DNA of 64,000 bases, taken from Agrococcus casei LMG 22410. GTDB lineage: Bacteria > Actinomycetota > Actinomycetes > Actinomycetales > Microbacteriaceae. Positions 37,766-48,969 of this stretch are shown here, one piece after another. Location: contig NZ_FUHU01000004.1 in NCBI RefSeq assembly GCF_900163565.1, positions 1-64,000 on the forward strand, written 5' to 3'. The notes beneath the pieces were generated by a model. That model saw nothing but the letters and a program-made list of their open reading frames with translations, ran no database searches and was not told the origin of the DNA. The translations under genes were made by a program, and so were the position numbers. Positions within the stretch are counted from its first letter, which is position 1; every line of letters starts with the position of its first letter.

Positions 37766-38623
37766 TCATGGTAGTTGCAGTTCGCCTCCGGGGGCACGGC
37801 AGGTTGCGGCGGCGACCAGCATCGCGCGCTCCAGAGCTTCGCCCCACGGCTGCTCATCGAGCAAGGCAAGGGCGAGCGTCGCATTCGTCGCGTCGCCCGC
37901 GCCGATCGTGTCGACGATGGGCGCATCCATGTGCGCGATGGGGCGCTGCTCGTGCAGCGAAGCGGTGCGGATGCTCGCCCCGGCTGGGCCTTCGGTCACG
38001 AGTGCGACCTCGAGGCCTGCGGCAAGCAGCTGCTCGGCCGCATCGTGCGGCTCGAGTTCGAAGAGCAGCCGGGTGTCTTCATCGCTCAGCTTCAGCATCG
38101 TCGCAGCGGCTGCGAGCCGGCGCAGGTTTGCGGCGAACGCCGCGACGGTGGCGGGGTCGTTGTCGCGCAGGTATCCGGGCCGGGGATTCGCATCGAGCAC
38201 GAACGGAATCGGCATTCGCTGCAGCGCTTGCAGCGCCTCCGTCTGCGCGTCGCTCTCCAGCGGAACACAGGAGACCACGACGCAGTCGGCCTCGGCGATC
38301 ACCGCGGCCTTCGACGCGACGTCGAAGAATCGCTTGCGTCCGGCCTCGTTGAAGACGTACTCCATCGACTCGCCGACTCGGGTCGCCGTGGCTGTCGCGG
38401 TGCCGTGTGGCGCATCCGTCGCGTGCACTCGCACGCCGTGCTCGGCCGCGTGCCGCAGGAGGGCCCGACCCGGCTCGTCGTCGGCGAGCATCGTGATGAG
38501 GTCGACGTCTGCTCCGAGCTTCGCGAGTCCGACGGCGACGTTGAAGGCGGCTCCGCCGGGAATCTGGCGGCCGTCGACGATGTCGATCAGGGCGTCGCCG
38601 ATGACGGCAACGCGATGGGTCAC
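37766..38623 (-). CDS. PfkB-family carbohydrate kinase
   Basis: 285 residues from GTG 38623. Ribokinase-like fold: IPGGAAFNVAVGLAKLGADV near the start and the ATP/anion-hole motif DTIGAGDATNATLALALL with the catalytic Asp. It resembles fructokinases but the substrate is not certain. The GTG overlaps the stop of the small upstream gene (GTGA), indicating a coupled pair. Confidence 0.82.
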   Translation of the reverse strand: MTHRVAVIGDALIDIVDGRQIPGGAAFNVAVGLAKLGADVDLITMLADDEPGRALLRHAAEHGVRVHATDAPHGTATATATRVGESMEYVFNEAGRKRFFDVASKAAVIAEADCVVVSCVPLESDAQTEALQALQRMPIPFVLDANPRPGYLRDNDPATVAAFAANLRRLAAAATMLKLSDEDTRLLFELEPHDAAEQLLAAGLEVALVTEGPAGASIRTASLHEQRPIAHMDAPIVDTIGAGDATNATLALALLDEQPWGEALERAMLVAAATCRAPGGELQLP

Positions 38624-38835
38624 TTCGACAGCTCGCGCTCGAGCTCTTCGAGTCGAACCTGGCGATCCTGCTCGAGCACCGAGCCGATTGCGAGCGCGAC
38701 TCCGATGCCCCACGAGCCCCAGAGCAGAAGGCTTCGCCAGTTGACGGGCGCTTCTTTCGTGACCTTGTAGACGCCAACGGCGCCGGCAACGGCTGTCAGG
38801 ACACCTGGGTTCAGAAGAAACTTGCGCACATGCAT
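38620..38835 (-). CDS. small hydrophobic protein upstream of the PfkB kinase
   Basis: 71 residues starting at ATG 38835: a basic N-terminus, two weak membrane segments (PGVLTAVAGAVGVYKVTK and SLLLWGSWGIGVALAIGSVL) and a charged helical tail (DRQVRLEELERELSK). It ends within the GTG of the kinase gene. No family is recognised; a membrane adaptor is only a guess. Confidence 0.5.
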   Translation of the reverse strand: MHVRKFLLNPGVLTAVAGAVGVYKVTKEAPVNWRSLLLWGSWGIGVALAIGSVLEQDRQVRLEELERELSK

Positions 38836-38907
38836 ACGGTACCGAACGCCCAGCAGGCGCGACAACTGCCCTGCCAAAGCCCAGCCTGGTCGGGTTAGGC
38901 TCCCGAT

Positions 38908-39915
38908 GTGACCACTCCATCGCCGAACACGCGCATCGCCGCCATCAGAGTGAGCCTGCCCGAGACCGTGCGCACGGCTGACGAGACCGAATACATGCTG
39001 CGCACATCGAACCCGGGGCTGCGGCTTCCGACCGGTCTGATCAGCCGCATGACCGGTGTCAGGCGGGTGCATGTGCGGCATCCGGACCAGCAGGCCTCAG
39101 ACCTCGCGGCCGACGCTGCGCGGGCCGCGCTCGCGGATGTGACCGGCCCCGTCGACCACCTGATCTTCGCAAGCGCCAGCCAAGACCTGATCGAGCCGGC
39201 CACCAGCCACATCCTCGCCGACAAGCTCGGCCTCGACCTGCCGGTGTTCGACGTCAAGAACGCCTGCAACTCGCTCGTCAACGGCATGCAGACCGCCTAC
39301 GGCCTCATCGCCACGGGGCAGGCGAGCCGGGTGCTCGTGGCCAGCGGCGAGACGCCGACGAGCGCTGTGCGGTGGCAGCTGAGCTCGAAGCAGCAGTTTC
39401 TGCGGTCGTTCCCCGGCTACACGATGAGCGACGGGGGAGCAGCGGTCGTACTCGAGGCGGCGGATGCCCCGGGCATCGAGGGCATGTACTTCGCGTCGCA
39501 GTCGCGGCACTGGAGCATCGGCACACTGCCCACGGGCGGCTCGATGTTTCCGCGGGATCCCGAGGCGACCTACTTCGACATGGACGGCGCAGGGCTTGCC
39601 GAAGCGTTCATGGACCTGGGCCCGGGGCCCGTGTTCGAGCTGCTCGACCGGCTCGATACCAGCATCGAAGACTTCGATCTCATCGCGATGCATCAGGTGG
39701 CCGAGCCGCACCTGCCGCGCATCGCCGAGAGGCTGGGCGTGCCCGTCGACCGCATCGTGCAGACAATCGCAGAGCACGGCAACCTCGCGTCCGTCACCCT
39801 GCCGCTGCAGCTGCGCCTGGCCCTCGACTCGGGTCGCATCAGTGAAGGCTCGCGCGTGCTCATGGTGGGGCTGGCGGGCGGCATCAGCATCGGCCTCGTG
39901 GCGGTGACACTGTGA
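38908..39915 (+). CDS. OleA-like thiolase (3-oxoacyl-ACP synthase III fold)
   Basis: 335 residues from GTG 38908, 6 bases after TAGGCT. Thiolase-fold condensing enzyme with catalytic Cys120 (VKNACNSLVNG), His262 (IAMHQVAEPHL) and Asn292 (AEHGNLASV). The spacing of 142 and 30 residues equals that of Xanthomonas OleA (Cys143, His285, Asn315, from memory) and not FabH (132, 30). OleA joins two fatty acyl-CoAs head to head into a 2-alkyl-3-oxoacid. It opens a five-gene operon with GTGA/ATGA overlaps. A starter KAS III role is the alternative. Confidence 0.78.
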   Translation: MTTPSPNTRIAAIRVSLPETVRTADETEYMLRTSNPGLRLPTGLISRMTGVRRVHVRHPDQQASDLAADAARAALADVTGPVDHLIFASASQDLIEPATSHILADKLGLDLPVFDVKNACNSLVNGMQTAYGLIATGQASRVLVASGETPTSAVRWQLSSKQQFLRSFPGYTMSDGGAAVVLEAADAPGIEGMYFASQSRHWSIGTLPTGGSMFPRDPEATYFDMDGAGLAEAFMDLGPGPVFELLDRLDTSIEDFDLIAMHQVAEPHLPRIAERLGVPVDRIVQTIAEHGNLASVTLPLQLRLALDSGRISEGSRVLMVGLAGGISIGLVAVTL

Positions 39916-40694
39916 ATGCAAAGGTGAGCGACCTCGCCGTCATCGTGCCCGTCTACAACGAGTCGGCTCGGGTGCACGAGACGCTGCGGCAGCTGCACGC
40001 TCAGCGCGACGATGACTTTGACGCGTACTTCGTCGACAACAGCTCGACCGACGGCTCGGGCGATATCATCAGGGCGTTCGCGGCCGAGCACGGGCGTGAA
40101 CGTTGGCATGTGATCCACGAGCCGGTCAAGGGAACAGGCGCGGCCGCCGACACCGGCATGCGCGCTGCCATCGCGGCGGGCCACACGCTGCTGGCTCGCA
40201 CCGACGCAGACTGCATTCCGCGCCTCGACTGGACGTCGAACATCCGAAAGGCGCTGACACCGAAGTCTGCGGGCGGTGACGGCCTCGACTTTCTCGGCGG
40301 CCTGCTGGTCTCGCGCCGCGACGAGGGCGAGCCGCTCTGGCGCCGCAAGCTGATGGAGTCGGCCGTCACCCTGGCGGTCGTGTTCGGCAAGCTTCGCGCG
40401 AGCAACCGCGGCAGCCAGTACCTCGGCGGGTACATCATGGCGCCCGGCTGCAACCTCGCGATCAGGGCCGAGACCTACACAGCGGCGGGCGGGTTTCCGC
40501 GCACGAAGATCGAAGATCTGCACGAGGACCGCGCGCTCGTCAACGCCGTGCGCGAGATCACGTCGCACTACGCCGAGCGACGCGACATCGTCGTAGCCGG
40601 CTCATCGCGACGAGTGCAGGCGTGGGGGCTGAAGAACACCCTGCTCTGGTACAAGGATCACGCCTACCGACCCGACCACGTGGACATCCGGTGA
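39912..40694 (+). CDS. family 2 glycosyltransferase
   Basis: 260 residues. GT-A fold with DLAVIVPVYNESARVHETLR, DAYFVDNSSTDGSGDIIRAF, the metal motif RTDADCIP (D-x-D), and KIEDLHEDRALV holding the ED region. No membrane helix is clear, so it probably acts at the cytoplasmic face. The GTG start overlaps the oleA-like stop (GTGA), and its own stop overlaps the P450 start the same way. A sugar may thus be added to the lipid product; the sugar cannot be predicted. Confidence 0.82.
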   Translation: MNAKVSDLAVIVPVYNESARVHETLRQLHAQRDDDFDAYFVDNSSTDGSGDIIRAFAAEHGRERWHVIHEPVKGTGAAADTGMRAAIAAGHTLLARTDADCIPRLDWTSNIRKALTPKSAGGDGLDFLGGLLVSRRDEGEPLWRRKLMESAVTLAVVFGKLRASNRGSQYLGGYIMAPGCNLAIRAETYTAAGGFPRTKIEDLHEDRALVNAVREITSHYAERRDIVVAGSSRRVQAWGLKNTLLWYKDHAYRPDHVDIR

Positions 40695-41857
40695 CGAGCC
40701 AGGCAGACCGGTTCGCACGTGCGATGCGGGCGGATGCGCGGGTCGTCCGTGCCGCGCATCCGTTCGTCGCGTCGATGCTCGAGGCGGTGCGTCGCCCCGT
40801 CATGCGCCTGCCGCGAATAGGCCTGCTCGTGCAGCAGACAGACCTCGTGCGCGAGGTCATGAGCGACACCGACCGCTTCACGAAGAACGGGCCCGGCGCC
40901 TCAAGCGACCTCTGGACGCCCGTGCTCGGCGACCGCGTGCTGGTAAACATGCACGGGCCCGACCACCACGCGATGCGCCGCACGCTGCAGCCGATCTTCG
41001 CACCCGGGTTCGTGAACGAGCTGGTGCGCGAGATGGTCGAACCGCGATGGAAGCAGGCTGCGGCGTCATTGGCTGCGGGCGACAGGGTCGACATCGCGAA
41101 GGTCACGCGCGAAGGGGCGAGCGACGCGATCGCTGTGCTCGTCGGGCTCGACCGCGGCGCCGTCGACGACGCCATGTTCGAGTCGGTGACGCAGATCACC
41201 GGCATGGTGAAGCTCACCAGGCCCCGGCTGACTGACCAGCAGGCTCAGCGCGCTCGCGACCTGCTGGCCCAGCTCACCGAGCACGCCCACGCGGCGTACG
41301 CGGGCGACGAATCGACAGTGCCGGGGCGGATGCGCGCACTCGGTCTCAGCGAGCGCGAAGCACTCGGGGCGGTCGGGGCGTTCATCCTGACCGGAACCGA
41401 GACGCTCGCGGGCGCGATTCCGCGCATCACGGCGATGCTCGCCGACGCCGACTGGTTCTCGCAGCTGACCGATGACGCAGCCGCCGACCGCGCGATCGCC
41501 GAGTCGCTTCGCTGGACGACCCCGTCGCTCGCGACGCTCCGCTCAGCCCTGGTCGACACCGAGATCGGGGGAGCGAAGGTGCAGAAGGGCGACCGCATCG
41601 TGCTCGCCACCTACAAGGCGAACCGGCAGCGCGGGCCCTGGGATCCGACGAGCGACCGGGTCGCCGGGCTCAGGCAGCTCTGGTTCGGTGCCGGCGAGCA
41701 CTTCTGCATCGGAGCCCCGCTGGCCATGGCGCAGATCCGCACCGCCATCACGGCGCTGCGATCGGTCGAGGGGCGTCTGCAGGCGACAGACCGCACCCCG
41801 CTTCGGAATACCGTCATCCCCTCGTATCGTTCCCTCGTGATGGAGGCGCGGAGGTGA
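40691..41857 (+). CDS. cytochrome P450
   Basis: 388 residues from GTG 40691. The heme loop is LWFGAGEHFCIGAPLAMAQ with Cys339 as ligand. The K-helix ExxR is ESLRWTTPS. The I-helix reads AFILTGTETLAGAI, where the usual acid-Thr pair is T-E-T. It is soluble, lacking an N-terminal anchor, so it needs separate redox partners, none of which lie nearby. It may hydroxylate the acyl product of this operon. Confidence 0.9.
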   Translation: MTSQADRFARAMRADARVVRAAHPFVASMLEAVRRPVMRLPRIGLLVQQTDLVREVMSDTDRFTKNGPGASSDLWTPVLGDRVLVNMHGPDHHAMRRTLQPIFAPGFVNELVREMVEPRWKQAAASLAAGDRVDIAKVTREGASDAIAVLVGLDRGAVDDAMFESVTQITGMVKLTRPRLTDQQAQRARDLLAQLTEHAHAAYAGDESTVPGRMRALGLSEREALGAVGAFILTGTETLAGAIPRITAMLADADWFSQLTDDAAADRAIAESLRWTTPSLATLRSALVDTEIGGAKVQKGDRIVLATYKANRQRGPWDPTSDRVAGLRQLWFGAGEHFCIGAPLAMAQIRTAITALRSVEGRLQATDRTPLRNTVIPSYRSLVMEARR

Positions 41858-41864
41858 TGGCTCA

Positions 41865-43430
41865 GTGAACGCAAGAGCAGAGGGAGTCGACCTCGTGGCA
41901 GCGCTGTGGGCTGCGATGGAGTCTGAAGGCCCGGCGATCTCGTTCGCGGGCAAGACGATCACGTTCAGGCAGCTGCGCACCCGCATCCAGACCGTCGCCG
42001 CCAATCTGCAGCGCCGCGGAATGCAGCCGGGCGACCGCGTGCTCTTCTCGGTGCGCCCCGGCATCGACTCGATGGTGCTGGCGCTCGCGATGGTGACCGT
42101 CGGCGCGACCGTGGTATTCGCCGACCCGGGAGCCGGCCGCGCCCTGTTCGAGACCCGCGCCAAGCTCGCAGCGGCACGATGGGTCGCCGCCGAATCGGTG
42201 CTCTTCGCGGCCTCGACGCCGCTGGTGAGGCCCCTCGCCCGCGCTCGCGGCATCGACCTGCCCGACTACAGCCGCATCATCGAAGACCCGCAGGTCGTCT
42301 TCTCCGGGCCTTGGCTGCCGGGCGTGCCACGCGGTGCGCACTCGCTGCGGTCGCTCGAAAAGCCCCGCGGGGTGCCGACGCCGCTGACTGAGCAGCACGG
42401 CGACACGGATGCGCTCATCATCTTCACCAGCGGCACGACTTCCGTGCCGAAGGGGGTCGTGCACACGCGGCACACACTCGGCGCCGGGCTCGCCGACGTG
42501 AGCGAGGGGCTCGGCTTCAGGCCCGGCCAGCGCGTGCTCACCGACCAGCTGATGATCGGGGTGCCAGCGCTCATCGCCGGCGCCCACTGGATCATGCCGA
42601 AGTACGGCCTCGACCCGGGGGCTGCGCCAGAGGACTACCTGCCGCTGCTGGGAGACGCAGACGCGGCGTTCTTGACACCCGCATCCATGAACGCAGTGCT
42701 CGACGCTCTCGGCGACCGCACGCTGCCGGGCCTCGAGCTCGTGGCGATGGGAGGGGCTCCCGTGCTCTCACCGCTGCTCCGCCGCATCCGTACCACCATG
42801 CCGAATGCCAAGATCAGAGCGATCTACGGCATGACGGAGGCGCTGCCCGTCGCAATCGCCGACGGTCACGAGAAGCTGCGCCGCGACCCGGCAGACGGCG
42901 ACTGGGTCGGCCGCATCGTTTCGTCGGTCAGCGCCCGAATCGCAGCAGACGGCGAGCTGCTGATCGAAGGGCCCGGCATCGCCCGCGGCTACCTGCACGA
43001 GCTGCCGAACGAGCTCGTGACGCTGCCCTCGGGCGACCTCGCGCGCATCGACGACGGCGACCTGGGACCAGAGCTGACGATGCTCGCCCGCAAGAAGGAC
43101 ATGCTGATCCGCGACCGCACCAACATCTACCCCGCGCTCTACGAGCCGGTCATCGTGACGCTGCCGGGCGTCGCCGAGGCGTACATCGTGGGGGTTCCCG
43201 ACGAGATCGGCGACGACCGGGTCGTGCTCGCGCTCGTGCTCGCCGCCGATGCCGCGGCAGGCACACCGGCCGCGGTCGAGCGTGCGCTGCCGGGCCTCAT
43301 CGACCACGCGGCTCTGCCCGATGCGGTCGTTCGCATCGACGCCGTGCCGCGCTCGGGCAGGCAGTCGAAGCCCGACCGCGAGGCGCTGTCGAAGCTCGTG
43401 GCGCCGATGCTCGAGGAGTCGCAGCGATGA
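41865..43430 (+). CDS. OleC-like AMP-dependent ligase (acyl-adenylate enzyme)
   Basis: 521 residues from GTG 41865 behind GGAGG. ANL-superfamily enzyme: the P-loop LIIFTSGTTSVPKGVVHT, IYGMTEALPVAIADG, and the C-terminal catalytic Lys in SGRQSKPDREAL. In ole clusters OleC turns a 2-alkyl-3-hydroxyacid into a beta-lactone using ATP. The sequence alone cannot separate this from a fatty-acyl-CoA ligase, but the neighbours (OleA- and OleD-like) favour OleC. ATGA overlap with the next gene. Confidence 0.78.
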   Translation: MNARAEGVDLVAALWAAMESEGPAISFAGKTITFRQLRTRIQTVAANLQRRGMQPGDRVLFSVRPGIDSMVLALAMVTVGATVVFADPGAGRALFETRAKLAAARWVAAESVLFAASTPLVRPLARARGIDLPDYSRIIEDPQVVFSGPWLPGVPRGAHSLRSLEKPRGVPTPLTEQHGDTDALIIFTSGTTSVPKGVVHTRHTLGAGLADVSEGLGFRPGQRVLTDQLMIGVPALIAGAHWIMPKYGLDPGAAPEDYLPLLGDADAAFLTPASMNAVLDALGDRTLPGLELVAMGGAPVLSPLLRRIRTTMPNAKIRAIYGMTEALPVAIADGHEKLRRDPADGDWVGRIVSSVSARIAADGELLIEGPGIARGYLHELPNELVTLPSGDLARIDDGDLGPELTMLARKKDMLIRDRTNIYPALYEPVIVTLPGVAEAYIVGVPDEIGDDRVVLALVLAADAAAGTPAAVERALPGLIDHAALPDAVVRIDAVPRSGRQSKPDREALSKLVAPMLEESQR

Positions 43431-44347
43431 CGCTGCTGCGCATTGCCGTCACGGGCGCGAGCGGCTTCGTCGGAGGCGCGGTCGCCACGGCGCTGGCCTC
43501 TGCCGGACACGAGGTGCTGGGCTTCGGTCGCAGGCCGGGCGGCTGGTCGCACCCTCGCGGCACCTACCTGCAGCGCGACCTCGTGCACGACGCGATTCCC
43601 GAGATCAACGACGTCAACGTGATCGTGCACGCTGCAGCCCTCGCCGACGACTGGGCAGACTGGCACGAGGCGTTCGACGCCAACGTTCGCACGACGGGCC
43701 GCCTCGCAGGGCTCGCAGCCCACGCACGACTCGTGCACATCTCGTCGGCAAGCGTCTACGACCCCTTCGAGCCCAATGTGCTCGCGGCGGAGTCCGACTC
43801 TCTGCCCAAGCGCTACATGAACGCATACGGCGCGACGAAAGCGATCGCCGAGCGCATCGCAGCCCTGCACCCGAACGCGATCATGCTCAGGCCCCACGCC
43901 GTCTACGGCCCCGGAGACACAACCCTGCTGCCGCGAGTTGAGTCGCGCATCCGCCTCGGCACACTCGCCTTGCCGGGAGGCGGGCGGTCGCTGCACACCG
44001 TCACCCACATCGACACCATGGTCGAAGCGGTCGAGCTGTCGCTGCAGAGCACCGTGACCGGGCCGGTCAACGTGGGCGATGCCGAGCCTGTCGCGATCGG
44101 GGAGTTCATCGCGGATGCCCTGGCCGCCAAGGGCCGTGGCGTGCGGATCGCATCGGTTCCGGTGGGCGGTGCGCTCGCGGTTGCCTCACGTGCCGAGGGG
44201 CTGGCGAAGCTCACCGGCTCGACGCCATCGACGACTCGCTACGCAGTCGCGCAGATCGGTCGGGAGCGCACCCTCGACCTCACCCGCGCACACGACCTGC
44301 TCGGGCTCACGAGGCGTCAGCCGTCGCTGGCCTTTCTCGCTGCCTGA
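43427..44347 (+). CDS. OleD-like NAD(P)-dependent epimerase/reductase
   Basis: 306-residue extended short-chain dehydrogenase. The nucleotide loop is VTGASGFVGGAVATAL; the catalytic pair is Tyr134-x3-Lys138 (NAYGATKAIAE), with SSASVYDP before it. OleD reduces the OleA product to a 2-alkyl-3-hydroxyacid. It starts within the ligase stop codon and ends the operon, overlapping the convergent hydrolase gene by 31 bases. A sugar-epimerase role for the glycosyltransferase step is the main alternative. Confidence 0.78.
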   Translation: MTLLRIAVTGASGFVGGAVATALASAGHEVLGFGRRPGGWSHPRGTYLQRDLVHDAIPEINDVNVIVHAAALADDWADWHEAFDANVRTTGRLAGLAAHARLVHISSASVYDPFEPNVLAAESDSLPKRYMNAYGATKAIAERIAALHPNAIMLRPHAVYGPGDTTLLPRVESRIRLGTLALPGGGRSLHTVTHIDTMVEAVELSLQSTVTGPVNVGDAEPVAIGEFIADALAAKGRGVRIASVPVGGALAVASRAEGLAKLTGSTPSTTRYAVAQIGRERTLDLTRAHDLLGLTRRQPSLAFLAA

Positions 44348-44892
44348 TCCTGCTGCAGCACCTGAATCTGCGGCGAGTACAGCTCGCAGACTTGCAGTGC
44401 GGCAGCCGCGTTCTCGACGGTCGAGCCGGCGCAGGCGTCGGCCGCGATCCGCACGAACCGGCCTGCGTCGGCTGCGGCCAGAGCGGTCGAGATGACGCAG
44501 CAGTCGGTCGCGACTCCGCAGAGCATGAGCCGCTGCGCATCACCAGTCGCCTCGCGAAGCTCGTCGCCCCACTTGCCAAAGGTCGCAAGATCGATCGTCG
44601 GATGCACGCTCAAGTCGCGAGCATCGGGAACCAGGTCGAACAGCGGGTCGTCGGCAGGCCTGTCTGCGAACGGCCAGGCGTCGAAGTATGCGCCCCACGA
44701 GCCGGAGCGATCAGCAGTCGGCAGCCACCTCGTCACGATGACGCGGTCGCCGTAGTCTGCTGCGAGACTGCGGATGCGCGGCATCGCGTCAGCGAACAGG
44801 GGAGTGCCCCACTCAGACGCCTCGGGACTCGCGAAGACGTTCTGCGGATCGATGACGACCAGCCACTCTGCGCCTGCTGACTCAGTGCTCAC
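44317..44892 (-). CDS. isochorismatase-family cysteine hydrolase
   Basis: 191 residues from GTG 44892. The catalytic triad of the family is present: Asp15 (LVVIDPQNVFA), Lys107 (ATFGKWGDEL) and Cys132 (CGVATDCCVISTAL). Members hydrolyse amides or carbamoyl groups such as nicotinamide, ureidoacrylate or N-carbamoyl compounds. The GTGA overlap with the NCS1 permease suggests it acts on a nucleobase-like or hydantoin-like compound brought in by that transporter; this is inference. Confidence 0.82.
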   Translation of the reverse strand: MSTESAGAEWLVVIDPQNVFASPEASEWGTPLFADAMPRIRSLAADYGDRVIVTRWLPTADRSGSWGAYFDAWPFADRPADDPLFDLVPDARDLSVHPTIDLATFGKWGDELREATGDAQRLMLCGVATDCCVISTALAAADAGRFVRIAADACAGSTVENAAAALQVCELYSPQIQVLQQDQAARKASDG

Positions 44893-46361
44893 GCCGCACC
44901 CTGCTCCTGCTTGCGGATCGTGCCGCGGCGCGCGAACCAGGTCACGACGAACGAGAAGACCAGGGCGAAGAACACGCCGAGGTTCGCGTAGGCCCAGTCG
45001 CCTTCGCGGCCGCCCACGATGCCGAGCAGATAGCCCTGCCAGTTGTTCCAGGCCGCGGCGTCGGCGAACATGTTGACGACCAGGCCCCATCCGACTGCCG
45101 ATGCTGCGACCATGGTGCCGATCGACACCCAGTCCCACGAGCCGTAGCGGCCGCGTGCATCGAACAGCGCCTCTTCGTCGTAGTCGCGCCTGCGGGTGAG
45201 GATGTCGGCGATGAGGATGCCCGCCCACGACGCGAGCGGCACGCCGAGGGTGATCAGGAAGCTCTGGAACGGCCCCAGGAAGTCAGTGGCGAAGAACACC
45301 ACCCAGATGGTGCCTGCGGTCAGGATCAGGCCGTCGATCGCAGCGGCTGCCGGGCGGGGGATGCGGATGCCGAGGCTCAGCAGCGTGAGGCCCGACGAGT
45401 AGATGCCGAGCACGGCTCCTGAGACGAGCGCCAGCACTGCGGTGAGCAGGAACGGCACCAACACCCACACCGGGAGGATCGTTGCGAGGGCTCCGACGGG
45501 GTCGACCTCGATGGCTGCGCTCAACGCGGGGTCGGAACCGGCCAGCAGCAGTCCGAGCACGACCAGCACCACGGGTGCGACCGAGCCTCCGATCGTGTTC
45601 CAGAGCACGATGCGCGAGTCGGGCGTCGAGCGCTTCTGGTAGCGCGACCAGTCGGCCGCGATGTTGATCCAGCCGAGGCCGAAGCCCGTCATCACCATGA
45701 CGAGGGCGCCGATCACCTGGCCGGTGCTGCCGGTCTCGAGCGCCATGACTGCCGCGAAGTCGATGTGGGGAATGGCGAGCACCGCGTACAGCACCGTGAC
45801 GGCGCCGGTGATCCAGGTCAGGATCGACTGCATGCGCATGATCGTGTGATAGCCGAGCACCGACGCCACGACGATGAGGGCGGCCACCACGACGGTCGCG
45901 ATGATCATCAGCAACACGCCGCCGTCGAAGCCGAGCTGGGCGAGCACCGTCGACGTCGCGAGCACGGCCATGATCGCGAGGAATGTCTCCCAGCCGATCG
46001 AGGTCAGCCACGACACGATGCCCGGCACCTTCTGCCCGTGCACGCCGAACGCTGCTCTCGACAGCACCATCGTGGGGGCAGAGCCGCGCTTGCCGGCGAT
46101 GGCGATGAGGCCGCAGAGCAGAAACGACACGACGATGCCGACGACGGCGACCGCCGTGGCCTGCCAGAAGCTGATGCCGAAGCCCAGGATGAACGACCCG
46201 TATGACATGCCGAACACCGACACGTTGGCCGCGAACCAGGGCCAGAACAGGTCGCTCGGCTTCGCGGTTCTCTGTGACTCGGGCACGATCTCGATGCCGG
46301 TCTTCTCGATCAGTCTGGCGGTCGGCGTCACTGCCGAATCCGCGTGTTCAGAATTGGTCAT
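44889..46361 (-). CDS. NCS1 family (cytosine/purine) permease
   Basis: 490 residues with about 12 membrane segments. NCS1 features include FWPWFAANVSVFGMSYGSFI, VLSRAAFGVHGQKVPGIVSW and GWINIAADWSRYQKRSTPDS. It imports a nucleobase or a related ring compound by cation symport; the exact substrate is not set. TACCGT lies 6 bases before the ATG (leaderless pattern). The cysteine hydrolase downstream overlaps by four bases. Confidence 0.88.
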   Translation of the reverse strand: MTNSEHADSAVTPTARLIEKTGIEIVPESQRTAKPSDLFWPWFAANVSVFGMSYGSFILGFGISFWQATAVAVVGIVVSFLLCGLIAIAGKRGSAPTMVLSRAAFGVHGQKVPGIVSWLTSIGWETFLAIMAVLATSTVLAQLGFDGGVLLMIIATVVVAALIVVASVLGYHTIMRMQSILTWITGAVTVLYAVLAIPHIDFAAVMALETGSTGQVIGALVMVMTGFGLGWINIAADWSRYQKRSTPDSRIVLWNTIGGSVAPVVLVVLGLLLAGSDPALSAAIEVDPVGALATILPVWVLVPFLLTAVLALVSGAVLGIYSSGLTLLSLGIRIPRPAAAAIDGLILTAGTIWVVFFATDFLGPFQSFLITLGVPLASWAGILIADILTRRRDYDEEALFDARGRYGSWDWVSIGTMVAASAVGWGLVVNMFADAAAWNNWQGYLLGIVGGREGDWAYANLGVFFALVFSFVVTWFARRGTIRKQEQGAA

Positions 46362-46378
46362 GAAGCAACGGTAGCGGG

Positions 46379-47173
46379 CTAATCCTGTCCCAGGTTCTCG
46401 TGTGCGAAATCGAGCGTTTCGGCGAGCAGTCGCAGCCGGTCGCGATCGGTCTTCGCCTTGCCGGTCTTGATCTCTGCGATGACCTGGCCGTCCCACTCGT
46501 TCTCGGCCAGCCACTCCAGCACTTCAGCCACCGGCTCGTTGCCGTGACCGGGCAGCATGTGCTCGTCGAAGAGCTTCTTGTCGTCGGCCGCGACGCCGTC
46601 GGTGAGGTGGATGTGGCGCAGCTTCTCGAGCCCCAGGTCGTGCGCGAGCTCGAGCGAGTTGCGCCTGGCCAGCGCGCAGTGCGAGAAGTCGAGCGTCGCG
46701 TGCTCGACATCCATCTCGCTGGGGTCGATGCCCGGCAGGTACGCCCGCTGGTCGCGGTCGCCCGTGCGCCACGGAAACATGTTCTCTACCGCGACCGTCA
46801 CGCCGTATCGCTCGGCCACCTCGCCGACGACGCGTTCGAATCCGGTCGCGTACCGGCCCTGCCATCGGAACGGCGGATGCACGACCACGGTGGGCACGCC
46901 GAGTTCGGCTGCCAGCTCGGCCGACTTCTCGAGTTTGATCATGGGTCCGCGTCCCCAGACGAATGTCGTGAGCAGAAGCGTGGGCGCGTGCAGGGCCATG
47001 ATCGGCTGGTCATACTCTTTGGAGAACTCTGCAAGACGCGTCTTCGAACGGGTGCGCGCATCCGTCGTGACCATGACTTCGACACCGTCGAAGCCTGTCT
47101 CTGCGCTCAGTCGAAAGCCGTCTTCGACGCCTTTGGGGAACACGCTGATAGTCGAGAGTCCAACAGGGATCAT
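46379..47173 (-). CDS. TIM-barrel sugar phosphate isomerase/epimerase
   Basis: 264 residues. AP-endonuclease-2-type TIM barrel with likely metal ligands in VVVHPPFRWQG, VAVENMFPW, LDFSHCALARR, RHIHLTDGV and the late IAEIKTGK. The true reaction is unknown; relatives isomerise or dehydrate sugars and inositols. I chose the ATG at 47173, 7 bases after TAGCGT; a GTG at 47182 is the alternative. It is divergent from ilvD by 101 bases. Confidence 0.78.
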   Translation of the reverse strand: MIPVGLSTISVFPKGVEDGFRLSAETGFDGVEVMVTTDARTRSKTRLAEFSKEYDQPIMALHAPTLLLTTFVWGRGPMIKLEKSAELAAELGVPTVVVHPPFRWQGRYATGFERVVGEVAERYGVTVAVENMFPWRTGDRDQRAYLPGIDPSEMDVEHATLDFSHCALARRNSLELAHDLGLEKLRHIHLTDGVAADDKKLFDEHMLPGHGNEPVAEVLEWLAENEWDGQVIAEIKTGKAKTDRDRLRLLAETLDFAHENLGQD

Positions 47174-47274
47174 GCCGACCACGCTACGCCCGATTGATGA
47201 ACGGCGACTGACGCGATGGCAAAGCGTTACGCGCGACTGCGGGGTCGCATGGCAACAGGCATAGACTTGAGTGC

Positions 47275-48969
47275 ATGGCCGAAGTCGACATCAAACCGCG
47301 TTCAAGAGCCGTCACTGACGGCATCGAAGCCACCACGTCGCGAGGCATGCTTCGCGGCGTCGGCATGGGCGACGACGACTGGGACAAGCCCCAGATCGGC
47401 ATCGCATCGAGCTGGAACGAGATCACCCCGTGCAATCTCTCGCTCAACCGACTTGCGCAGGGCGCCAAGGAGGGCGTGCACGCAGGCGGCGGCTACCCGC
47501 TGCAGTTCGGCACGATCTCCGTCTCTGACGGCATCTCGATGGGCCACGAGGGCATGCACTTCTCGCTCGTCTCACGAGAGGTCATCGCCGACAGCGTCGA
47601 GACCGTCGTCATGGCCGAGCGCCTCGACGGCACAGTGCTGCTCGCCGGCTGCGACAAGTCGCTGCCCGGCATGCTGATGGCAGCGGCCAGGCTCGACCTC
47701 GCGAGCGTCTTCGTCTACGCCGGCTCGATCGCCCCGGGGCGCGTCACGCTCTCTGATGGCACCGAGCGTGAGATCACCATCATCGACTCGTTCGAGGCCG
47801 TCGGTGCCTGCAAGGCCGGCACCATGAGCGAAGAAGACCTCAAGAAGATCGAGTGCGGCTTCGCACCGACCGAGGGCGCGTGCGGCGGCATGTACACCGC
47901 CAACACGATGGCCTGCATCGCCGAGGCGCTCGGCATGAGCCTGCCGGGCTCGTCGACGCCGCTCTCGGCTGACCGCCGTCGCGACATGTACTCGCACCGC
48001 TCGGGCGAGGCAGTCGTCAACATGCTGCGCAAGGGCCTCACGACCAGCGACATCCTGACCAAGAAGGCGTTCGAGAACGCCGTCACGGTCGCGATGGTGC
48101 TCGGCGGATCCACCAACGCCGTGCTGCACCTGCTCGCCATCGCCAACGAGGCCGGCGTCGAGCTTACCCTCGACGACTTCACGCGCATCGGCCAGAAGTC
48201 GCCGCACCTGGCAGACGTCAAGCCGTTCGGCCAGTTCGTCGCCCAGGACTTCGACCGCGTCGGAGGCATGCCCGTCATCATGAAGGCGCTGCTCGACGCG
48301 GGCCTGCTGCACGGCGACGCCATGACGGTCACCGGCAAGACGCTCGCCGAGAACCTCGCAGACCTGAACCCGGCCGCGATCGACGGCAAGGTCGTGCGCG
48401 AGCTCGACGACCCCATCCACGCCACCGGCGGACTGACCATTCTCGACGGAACATTCGCGCCTGACGGCGCCGTGGTCAAGACGGCCGGCTTCGACGCCGA
48501 GCTGTTCGAGGGCCCGGCACGCGTGTTCGAGCGCGAGCGTGAGGCGATGGATGCGCTGACCCGCGGCGAGATCGCAGCCGGCGACGTCGTGGTCATCAGG
48601 TACGAGGGCCCCAAGGGCGGCCCTGGCATGCGCGAGATGCTCGCGATCACCGCGGCCATCAAGGGCGCTGGGCTCGGCAAAGATGTACTACTCTTGACAG
48701 ACGGAAGATTCTCGGGCGGCACAACCGGCCTGTGCATCGGACACATTGCACCGGAGGCAGTGGACGCTGGTCCTATTGCCTTCGTGCGCGATGGAGACAA
48801 GATTCGTGTTGACATCGCAGCTCGCACACTCGATTTACTCGTCGATGAAGCAGAGCTCGCCTCCCGGCGTGAAGGCTGGGAGCCGCTGCCGCCGCGATAC
48901 ACTCGCGGGGTCCTCGCCAAGTACTCCAAGCTGGTCAAGAGCGCCGCTCAGGGCGCCGTGACCGGCTGA
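47275..48969 (+). CDS. ilvD: dihydroxy-acid dehydratase
   Basis: 564 residues. Third common enzyme of valine, leucine and isoleucine synthesis, with an iron-sulfur cluster. Cluster cysteines lie in [12 protein letters not shown] and [12 protein letters not shown]; the end has [20 protein letters not shown] with the catalytic Ser. TAGACT lies 7 bases before the ATG. Codons in 48679-48880 are unusual for this genome (GTA, CTA, TTG, AGA, TTA), though the protein stays normal. ilvB follows 25 bases later. Confidence 0.95.

Follow-up and report, generated by a model that had tools for sequence, protein, structure and literature searches.

Why would a cell carry a set of Ole-type genes without oleB, and what would it make with the glycosyltransferase and cytochrome P450 encoded among them? 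The question is raised by a five-gene operon of Agrococcus casei LMG 22410, located at positions 38908-44347 (plus strand) of the 64,000-nucleotide stretch of DNA analyzed here (the window), on contig C29 (genome size, 2.79 Mb). The Ole pathway links fatty acids in head-to-head pairs. A check of open reading frames and sequence found five intact genes: an OleA-like thiolase (A), a family 2 glycosyltransferase (GT2), a P450, an ANL adenylate-forming ligase, and an OleD-like extended short-chain dehydrogenase/reductase (SDR; D). We consider it rather likely that this operon specifies a divergent Ole-type pathway, which the cell has in addition to its ordinary olefin pathway, and that it makes a hydroxylated, glycosylated 2-alkyl-3-hydroxy acid with a carboxylate activated by the ANL enzyme. 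Of the readings considered, hydroxylation plus glycosylation of a putative head-to-head lipid finds the most support.

The same genes recur together in many actinobacteria. The 80 best of 214 related loci were analyzed; they come from Streptomyces, Actinomadura, Catellatospora, Nonomuraea, Agrococcus, and others, and the closest named relatives are Agrococcus. The order A, GT2, P450, ANL ligase, D is identical, on a single strand, in 66 of the 80 loci, so the grouping is not due to chance.

The identity of the pathway depends foremost on the first gene (38908..39915, plus strand), which has a GTG start and encodes a 335-amino-acid thiolase of the KASIII fold. Its Cys-His-Asn triad lies at C120, H262, and N292, exactly where the earlier note had placed it, and is complete in 81/81 A proteins from operons of this kind (operon-type A); canonical OleA (21/21) and FabH enzymes (21/21) have it as well. 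Two other residues divide these groups. The first, E96, occupies the position of E117 in the X. campestris enzyme, which we take to be the catalytic Glu of OleA; E117 mutants appear among the solved structures listed in the structure comparison of A. This Glu is found in all 81 operon-type A proteins and in 21/21 canonical OleA, and in none of 21 FabH loci, where Thr, Ala, Ile, or Tyr stands instead. The second, Asn118 of an Asn-Ala-Cys motif, is distributed in the same manner (81/81, 21/21, and 0/21), with Ala or Ile in FabH. An initial FabH set (17 rows from the 21 loci) had been selected with a motif in which Ala is required ahead of the Cys, and was thus unfair at Asn118; the FabH figures for both residues come from a repeat on all 21 loci without the motif filter.

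Operon-type A also has a signature of its own: NACNS, in place of the NACL of canonical OleA. For this reason the pattern of a published OleA survey, EPxx[AS]x(14,18)DxxNACL (given in the available portion of PMC7158056), finds 0/81 operon-type A proteins; with the final L dropped, it finds 79/81. A quick unrooted tree built with 38 of the 81 proteins splits cleanly into three separate clades: one of operon-type A, one of canonical OleA that includes the X. campestris enzyme, and one of FabH. The residues and the tree support an assignment of operon-type A to a clade of its own with OleA-type catalytic residues, and on their strength we reject a FabH identity as very unlikely; the earlier proposal of an OleA-type thiolase rather than a FabH is upheld in these terms.

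The best evidence for OleA chemistry in this lineage comes from a different context. A NACNS-type A with 34-36% identity to that of the window, and 27-29% to canonical OleA, is encoded in six genomes from a single genus (G101, G143, G157, G171, G213, and G237; loci L237-L242), and in 6/6 it lies directly upstream of oleB-oleC-oleD of the canonical kind. In a later tree with 21 of the 81 operon-type proteins, these sequences join operon-type A with moderate support (93/74), under a warning of long branches from the program. The lineage in the oleB-oleC-oleD context is probably the sister of operon-type A. Given this lineage and the conserved catalytic residues, A would condense a pair of fatty acyl-CoAs in a head-to-head, non-decarboxylative manner to yield a 2-alkyl-3-oxo acid. 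Apart from the modest tree support, three findings speak against a close tie to OleA. The best curated family of A, PRK09258, scores 149.2 bits, under its cut-off of 285 (the canonical OleA of the same genome scores 431 bits); A is only 26-28% identical to X. campestris OleA and to the OleA of its own genome; and, among solved structures, FabHs rank first as single matches in phmmer and in Foldseek (by E-value), narrowly ahead of X. campestris OleA. Comparison of folds did not discriminate.

Is this the only Ole-type pathway of the cell? It is not. Contig C46 (57008-61761; L129:7009-11762) encodes a canonical oleA, an 898-amino-acid oleBC fusion with the GHDWGG motif, and an oleD. The fusion is the sole OleB found in the genome (E 0.001). 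Around 80 operon loci no OleB was detected at E 1e-3, at which the positive control was found. The earlier note had described the gene set as lacking OleB and had named a genome-wide search as the test: the description holds for the operon and fails for the cell, where that search found the complete set on C46. The note had counted an oleB elsewhere in the genome, together with olefins, as refuting its reading, and the first half of this pair is present. In 10 loci (represented by L059, from Actinomadura) an alpha/beta hydrolase lies close to the cluster; it was considered as an OleB and rejected, since by eye it has GLGVGG and not GHDWGG. By itself, the operon would yield no olefin.

Among 24 genomes of the genus, the window's own included, operon-type A occurs in 10 and canonical OleA in 17: seven genomes have both, three only operon-type A, ten only canonical OleA, and four neither. 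Some of these genomes are incomplete; G015, with operon-type A only, is 86% complete. Of 12 more genomes of the order that carry operon-type A, four were found to have OleB and eight were not. The occurrence of operon-type A without canonical OleA or OleB argues that the operon is independent of the olefin pathway.

D (43427..44347, plus strand; 306 amino acids) has the SDR Tyr-x3-Lys pair, Y134/K138, which is conserved in 75/75 relatives, and its best curated family is OleD by a wide margin (NF042422, 104.5 bits for the window protein; 52.6 for the next non-Ole family). The cut-off of this family is 580 bits, and both the window D and the canonical D (274 bits) fall under it; the OleD model matches 26/26 aligned members, the window included. 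By profile, then, D is OleD-like, in agreement with the earlier reading of the fifth gene as an OleD-like extended SDR, and it would reduce the 2-alkyl-3-oxo acid to a 2-alkyl-3-hydroxy acid. In a quick tree, however, D relatives fell beside four other SDRs of the genome and not with canonical OleD, on very long branches and with poor outgroup rows, one of them just 13% filled.

A hint on the substrate comes from the loss of D. Six congeners (G002, G004, G007, G011, G018, and G019), each with a canonical OleA, have an operon that lacks the gene, and so does G044, which carries a canonical cluster; the gene is present in the genome of the window and in the three congeners that have no canonical OleA. 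Over 22 genomes, D is lost in 7/11 with canonical ole genes versus 0/11 without (Fisher p 0.004). These counts suggest that canonical OleD serves both pathways where D is lost; if so, both would handle the same kind of substrate. The association has its weak sides: it reflects two loss events, and kinship-corrected pairs cannot reach significance; in addition, the sole D-like gene of G590 and G274 lies upstream of A and scores slightly better against canonical OleD, and counting both genomes as D-less gives 7/11 versus 2/11 (Fisher p 0.08).

The glycosyltransferase and the P450 set the operon apart from an olefin pathway. The former (39912..40694, plus strand; 260 amino acids) belongs to family GT2, with a DAD motif (D98-D100) conserved in 73/73. 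The latter (40691..41857, plus strand; 388 amino acids) has its heme Cys339 and the I-helix residues G235, E237, and T238 in 80/80 relatives, and the ExxR residues Glu271 and Arg274 in 77/80 and 79/80. In three of 63 adjacent pairs the two genes form a single open frame (L032, 10999-12981; L034; and L035, 10996-12945), and no fusion of any other neighboring gene pair was found. The place of both genes in a conserved operon and the in-frame fusions indicate that they belong to the pathway, as the earlier note had supposed of the sugar transferase and the P450. We infer that they act consecutively on one substrate. Operon, fusion, and co-conservation together suggest that the P450 hydroxylates an alkyl chain and that the GT2 attaches a sugar to that hydroxyl. 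The case is lessened by the close relationship of two of the fused loci, L032 and L034.

Natural variants reveal which genes travel together. In a set of 96 loci (the 80 and 16 more), the GT and the ANL ligase are both present in 85, both absent from ten, and the GT stands alone in one, at a contig end; the ligase never stands alone. The two genes come and go together. Clusters of A, P450, and D without GT and ligase are found at L068, L071, L077, L081, L088, and L227 (five Nonomuraea loci and G265), and G590 and G274 were counted with this type in spite of the D-like gene upstream of A. No GT orthologue was detected elsewhere in nine GT-less genomes at E 1e-15, at which both positive controls were found. 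That ten of the 96 loci do without GT and ligase counts against the pathway as we read it. The existence of A-P450-D clusters without a ligase also argues that the ANL enzyme acts late, with the GT, rather than feeding A. At L069 (8697-11005), by eye, A has a divergent P450 next to it and lies in a group of further P450, thiolase, and acyl-CoA-type genes; this may be a different pathway.

What, then, does the ligase do? The gene (41865..43430, plus strand) encodes a 521-amino-acid ANL enzyme that looks active: motif A3, the A5 Glu, the A7 Gly-Asp, and Lys502 are conserved in 71/71 operon ligases. In the pathway that we favor, it would adenylate the carboxylate late, in a step tied to glycosylation, and the outcome would be a beta-lactone, as OleC would give, or another ester or lactone.

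The strongest alternative is that the enzyme is a true beta-lactone synthetase and the product a hydroxylated, glycosylated beta-lactone, one of the two kinds of product that the earlier note proposed; we regard this as a serious possibility, though at somewhat less than even chances. Kinship with OleC is visible in a profile comparison, where operon ligase and canonical OleC align over 470 columns, nearly their full length, with probability 100 and 25% identity. The motif YxxTExLP occurs in both (59/70 operon ligases and 9/19 OleC), NF006754 (PRK09274) is the best NCBIfam match of the window ligase and of canonical OleBC alike, and the absence of the ligase from some A-bearing clusters fits an enzyme that is not the feeder of A. 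The finer motifs disagree. The hinge RKKDM is present in 64/70 operon ligases and 0/19 OleC, whereas GRxxHV (0/70 versus 16/19) and the end motif RHNSK (0/70 versus 13/19) are confined to OleC. In a quick tree OleC falls, with a support of 92, beside four of the genome's other ANL enzymes and not with the operon ligase. A more careful tree drew on 18 of the 71 operon ligases, 12 of the 19 OleC, and six other ANL enzymes of the genome (of its 11 ANL matches, namely the window's, the ole one, and nine others, eight of the latter were tried and six gave usable rows); there, forcing operon ligase and OleC together costs 6.5 log-likelihood units and is not rejected at 0.05 (approximately unbiased test, p 0.07). 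General long-chain acyl-CoA ligase models match 22/22 aligned members, with best E-values better than those of the OleC model; for the window ligase, NF006754 scores 138.5 bits, PRK06187 130.8, and the OleC model NF045786 96.2, all far under their cut-offs. Comparison of folds did not discriminate. These differences also count against the pathway that we favor. The ligase is, on its sequence, an ANL enzyme and a distant relative of OleC that is not demonstrably OleC: of the earlier assignment, the ANL ligase stands and the likeness to OleC holds only loosely. Since the canonical hinge and C-terminal motifs are missing and the trees do not unite the two enzymes, the beta-lactone step is weaker than was assumed.

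A second alternative, which we hold to be somewhat unlikely, gives the ligase an ordinary role in making acyl-CoA or acyl-AMP, either to provide A with acyl groups or to load a side chain; the operon would then yield a glycosylated ketone or hydroxy acid that lacks a lactone. The hinge residue of ANL enzymes matters in thioester formation, and the usual ANL hinge is retained here (K411 and D412, each at least 97% conserved), as is the invariant Lys502; acyl-CoA ligase families are, moreover, among the top matches. Set against this role, A seems not to need the ligase in the A-P450-D clusters, and the ligase tracks the GT, not A.

A bolder proposal, and in our view a less probable one again, builds on this last point. 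GT and ANL ligase would together be a module, gained or lost as one, that accompanies a core of A, P450, and D; the ligase, instead of acting as a beta-lactone synthetase, would esterify the carboxylate of the glycosylated 2-alkyl-3-hydroxy acid, for instance onto its own sugar. The result could be an undescribed mycolate-like glycolipid or macrolactone in several actinobacterial families.

It is quite improbable that the intermediates of the operon pass to the OleBC and OleD of C46 and end as functionalized olefins. The complete ole gene set of the genome would allow it, and the absence of D from the operon in six congeners, all with canonical OleA, would fit; operon-type A without canonical OleA in 3/10 congeners (one of them the 86% complete G015) and without OleB in 8/12 other genomes of the order suggests, in contrast, that the operon can work alone. 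Least credible of all is a FabH-like ketosynthase with an unrelated, decarboxylatively condensed product, for which the top solved-structure matches speak and against which stand the separate clade, the OleA-type Glu and Asn-Ala-Cys in 81/81 operon-type A and in no FabH, the OleD-like partner gene, and the sister lineage in an oleB-oleC-oleD context.

The genes of the operon overlap by GTGA at the A/GT and GT/P450 joins and by ATGA between ligase and D; between P450 and ligase lies a gap of seven bases (41858-41864), so that the overlaps given in the earlier note are correct and its gap of eight bases is not. The TAGGCT box that it proposed as a leaderless promoter is present: a -10-like element of the leaderless type at 38896..38901 (plus strand), six bases upstream of the GTG start. 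A TAnnnT box stands directly before the start in 13/15 upstream stretches, the window included (9/10 and 4/5 in two sets, judged partly by eye), and both stretches without it come from one genome (G007, L031), where the start is possibly misplaced. A scan for two-hexamer sigma-70 promoters over 38400-44800 found none. The operon is genuine, and its leaderless-type promoter recurs in relatives.

Downstream of the operon (44320-48969), the window has isochorismatase and permease genes on the minus strand, as well as a sugar-isomerase-like gene and ilvD. Look-alikes of the latter two follow soon after the ligase at L031 and L037 (by eye). Ten representatives of recurrent neighbors were scanned: they matched P450, thiolase, metallo-beta-lactamase fold, GT4, Clp_N, methyltransferase, hydrolase, AIRS, and LytR, and one had no match. 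None is arguably a part of the pathway; in this survey, gene calling missed or mis-framed some genes.

The operon thus belongs to a compact family common to Streptomyces, Actinomadura, Catellatospora, Agrococcus, and others, an orphan Ole-type operon of a kind already published. Its natural variants (A-P450-D clusters, GT-P450 fusions, and NACNS-type OleA before oleB-oleC-oleD) allow each step to be probed separately.

How does it compare with systems already described? The nocardiolactone (nltABCD) and lipstatin (lst) beta-lactone clusters, like the operon of the window, contain OleA-, OleC-, and OleD-like genes without OleB; they differ in having two thiolases, and to our knowledge they have no GT2-P450 pair. 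Both clusters are named in PMC7064751. FabH (KASIII) shares the fold and the Cys-His-Asn triad with A, replaces the Glu and Asn118, and forms a separate clade. The oleABCD pathway, in its Micrococcales type with an oleBC fusion (as far as the available portion of PMC7158056 describes it), has in common with the operon an OleA-like thiolase with the catalytic Glu, an OleD-like reductase, and an ANL enzyme; the operon differs in the lack of OleB, the additional GT and P450, NACNS in place of NACL, and other ANL motifs. In the open-licence literature searched, we found no identified product for this kind of operon, and a search aimed at glycosylated beta-lactones gave no paper. The available portions of PMC9323897 and PMC12089952 report antiSMASH betalactone regions in Agrococcus and identify no product for them.

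The closest match is a cluster of Actinoplanes atraurantiacus with OleA, a glycosyltransferase, OleC, a P450, and OleD, and without oleB (Smith et al. 2020; PMC7064751, in the part available). According to the same source, the OleA is active in a p-nitrophenyl ester assay, and the predicted product is a hydroxylated, glycosylated beta-lactone. The earlier note had offered this product as one it did not know to be described; essentially the same prediction was in print in 2020, which lends some support to the beta-lactone alternative, and the ligase motifs reported here cast doubt on the beta-lactone predicted for such a cluster. The two systems are alike in their five kinds of protein, in the absence of oleB from the cluster, and in the predicted class of product, and from this make-up we infer common descent of the A. 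atraurantiacus cluster with the present operon family. They differ in their genomic setting: according to the available part of PMC7064751, the genome of A. atraurantiacus is without any oleB, whereas the genome of the window carries a complete ole cluster elsewhere.

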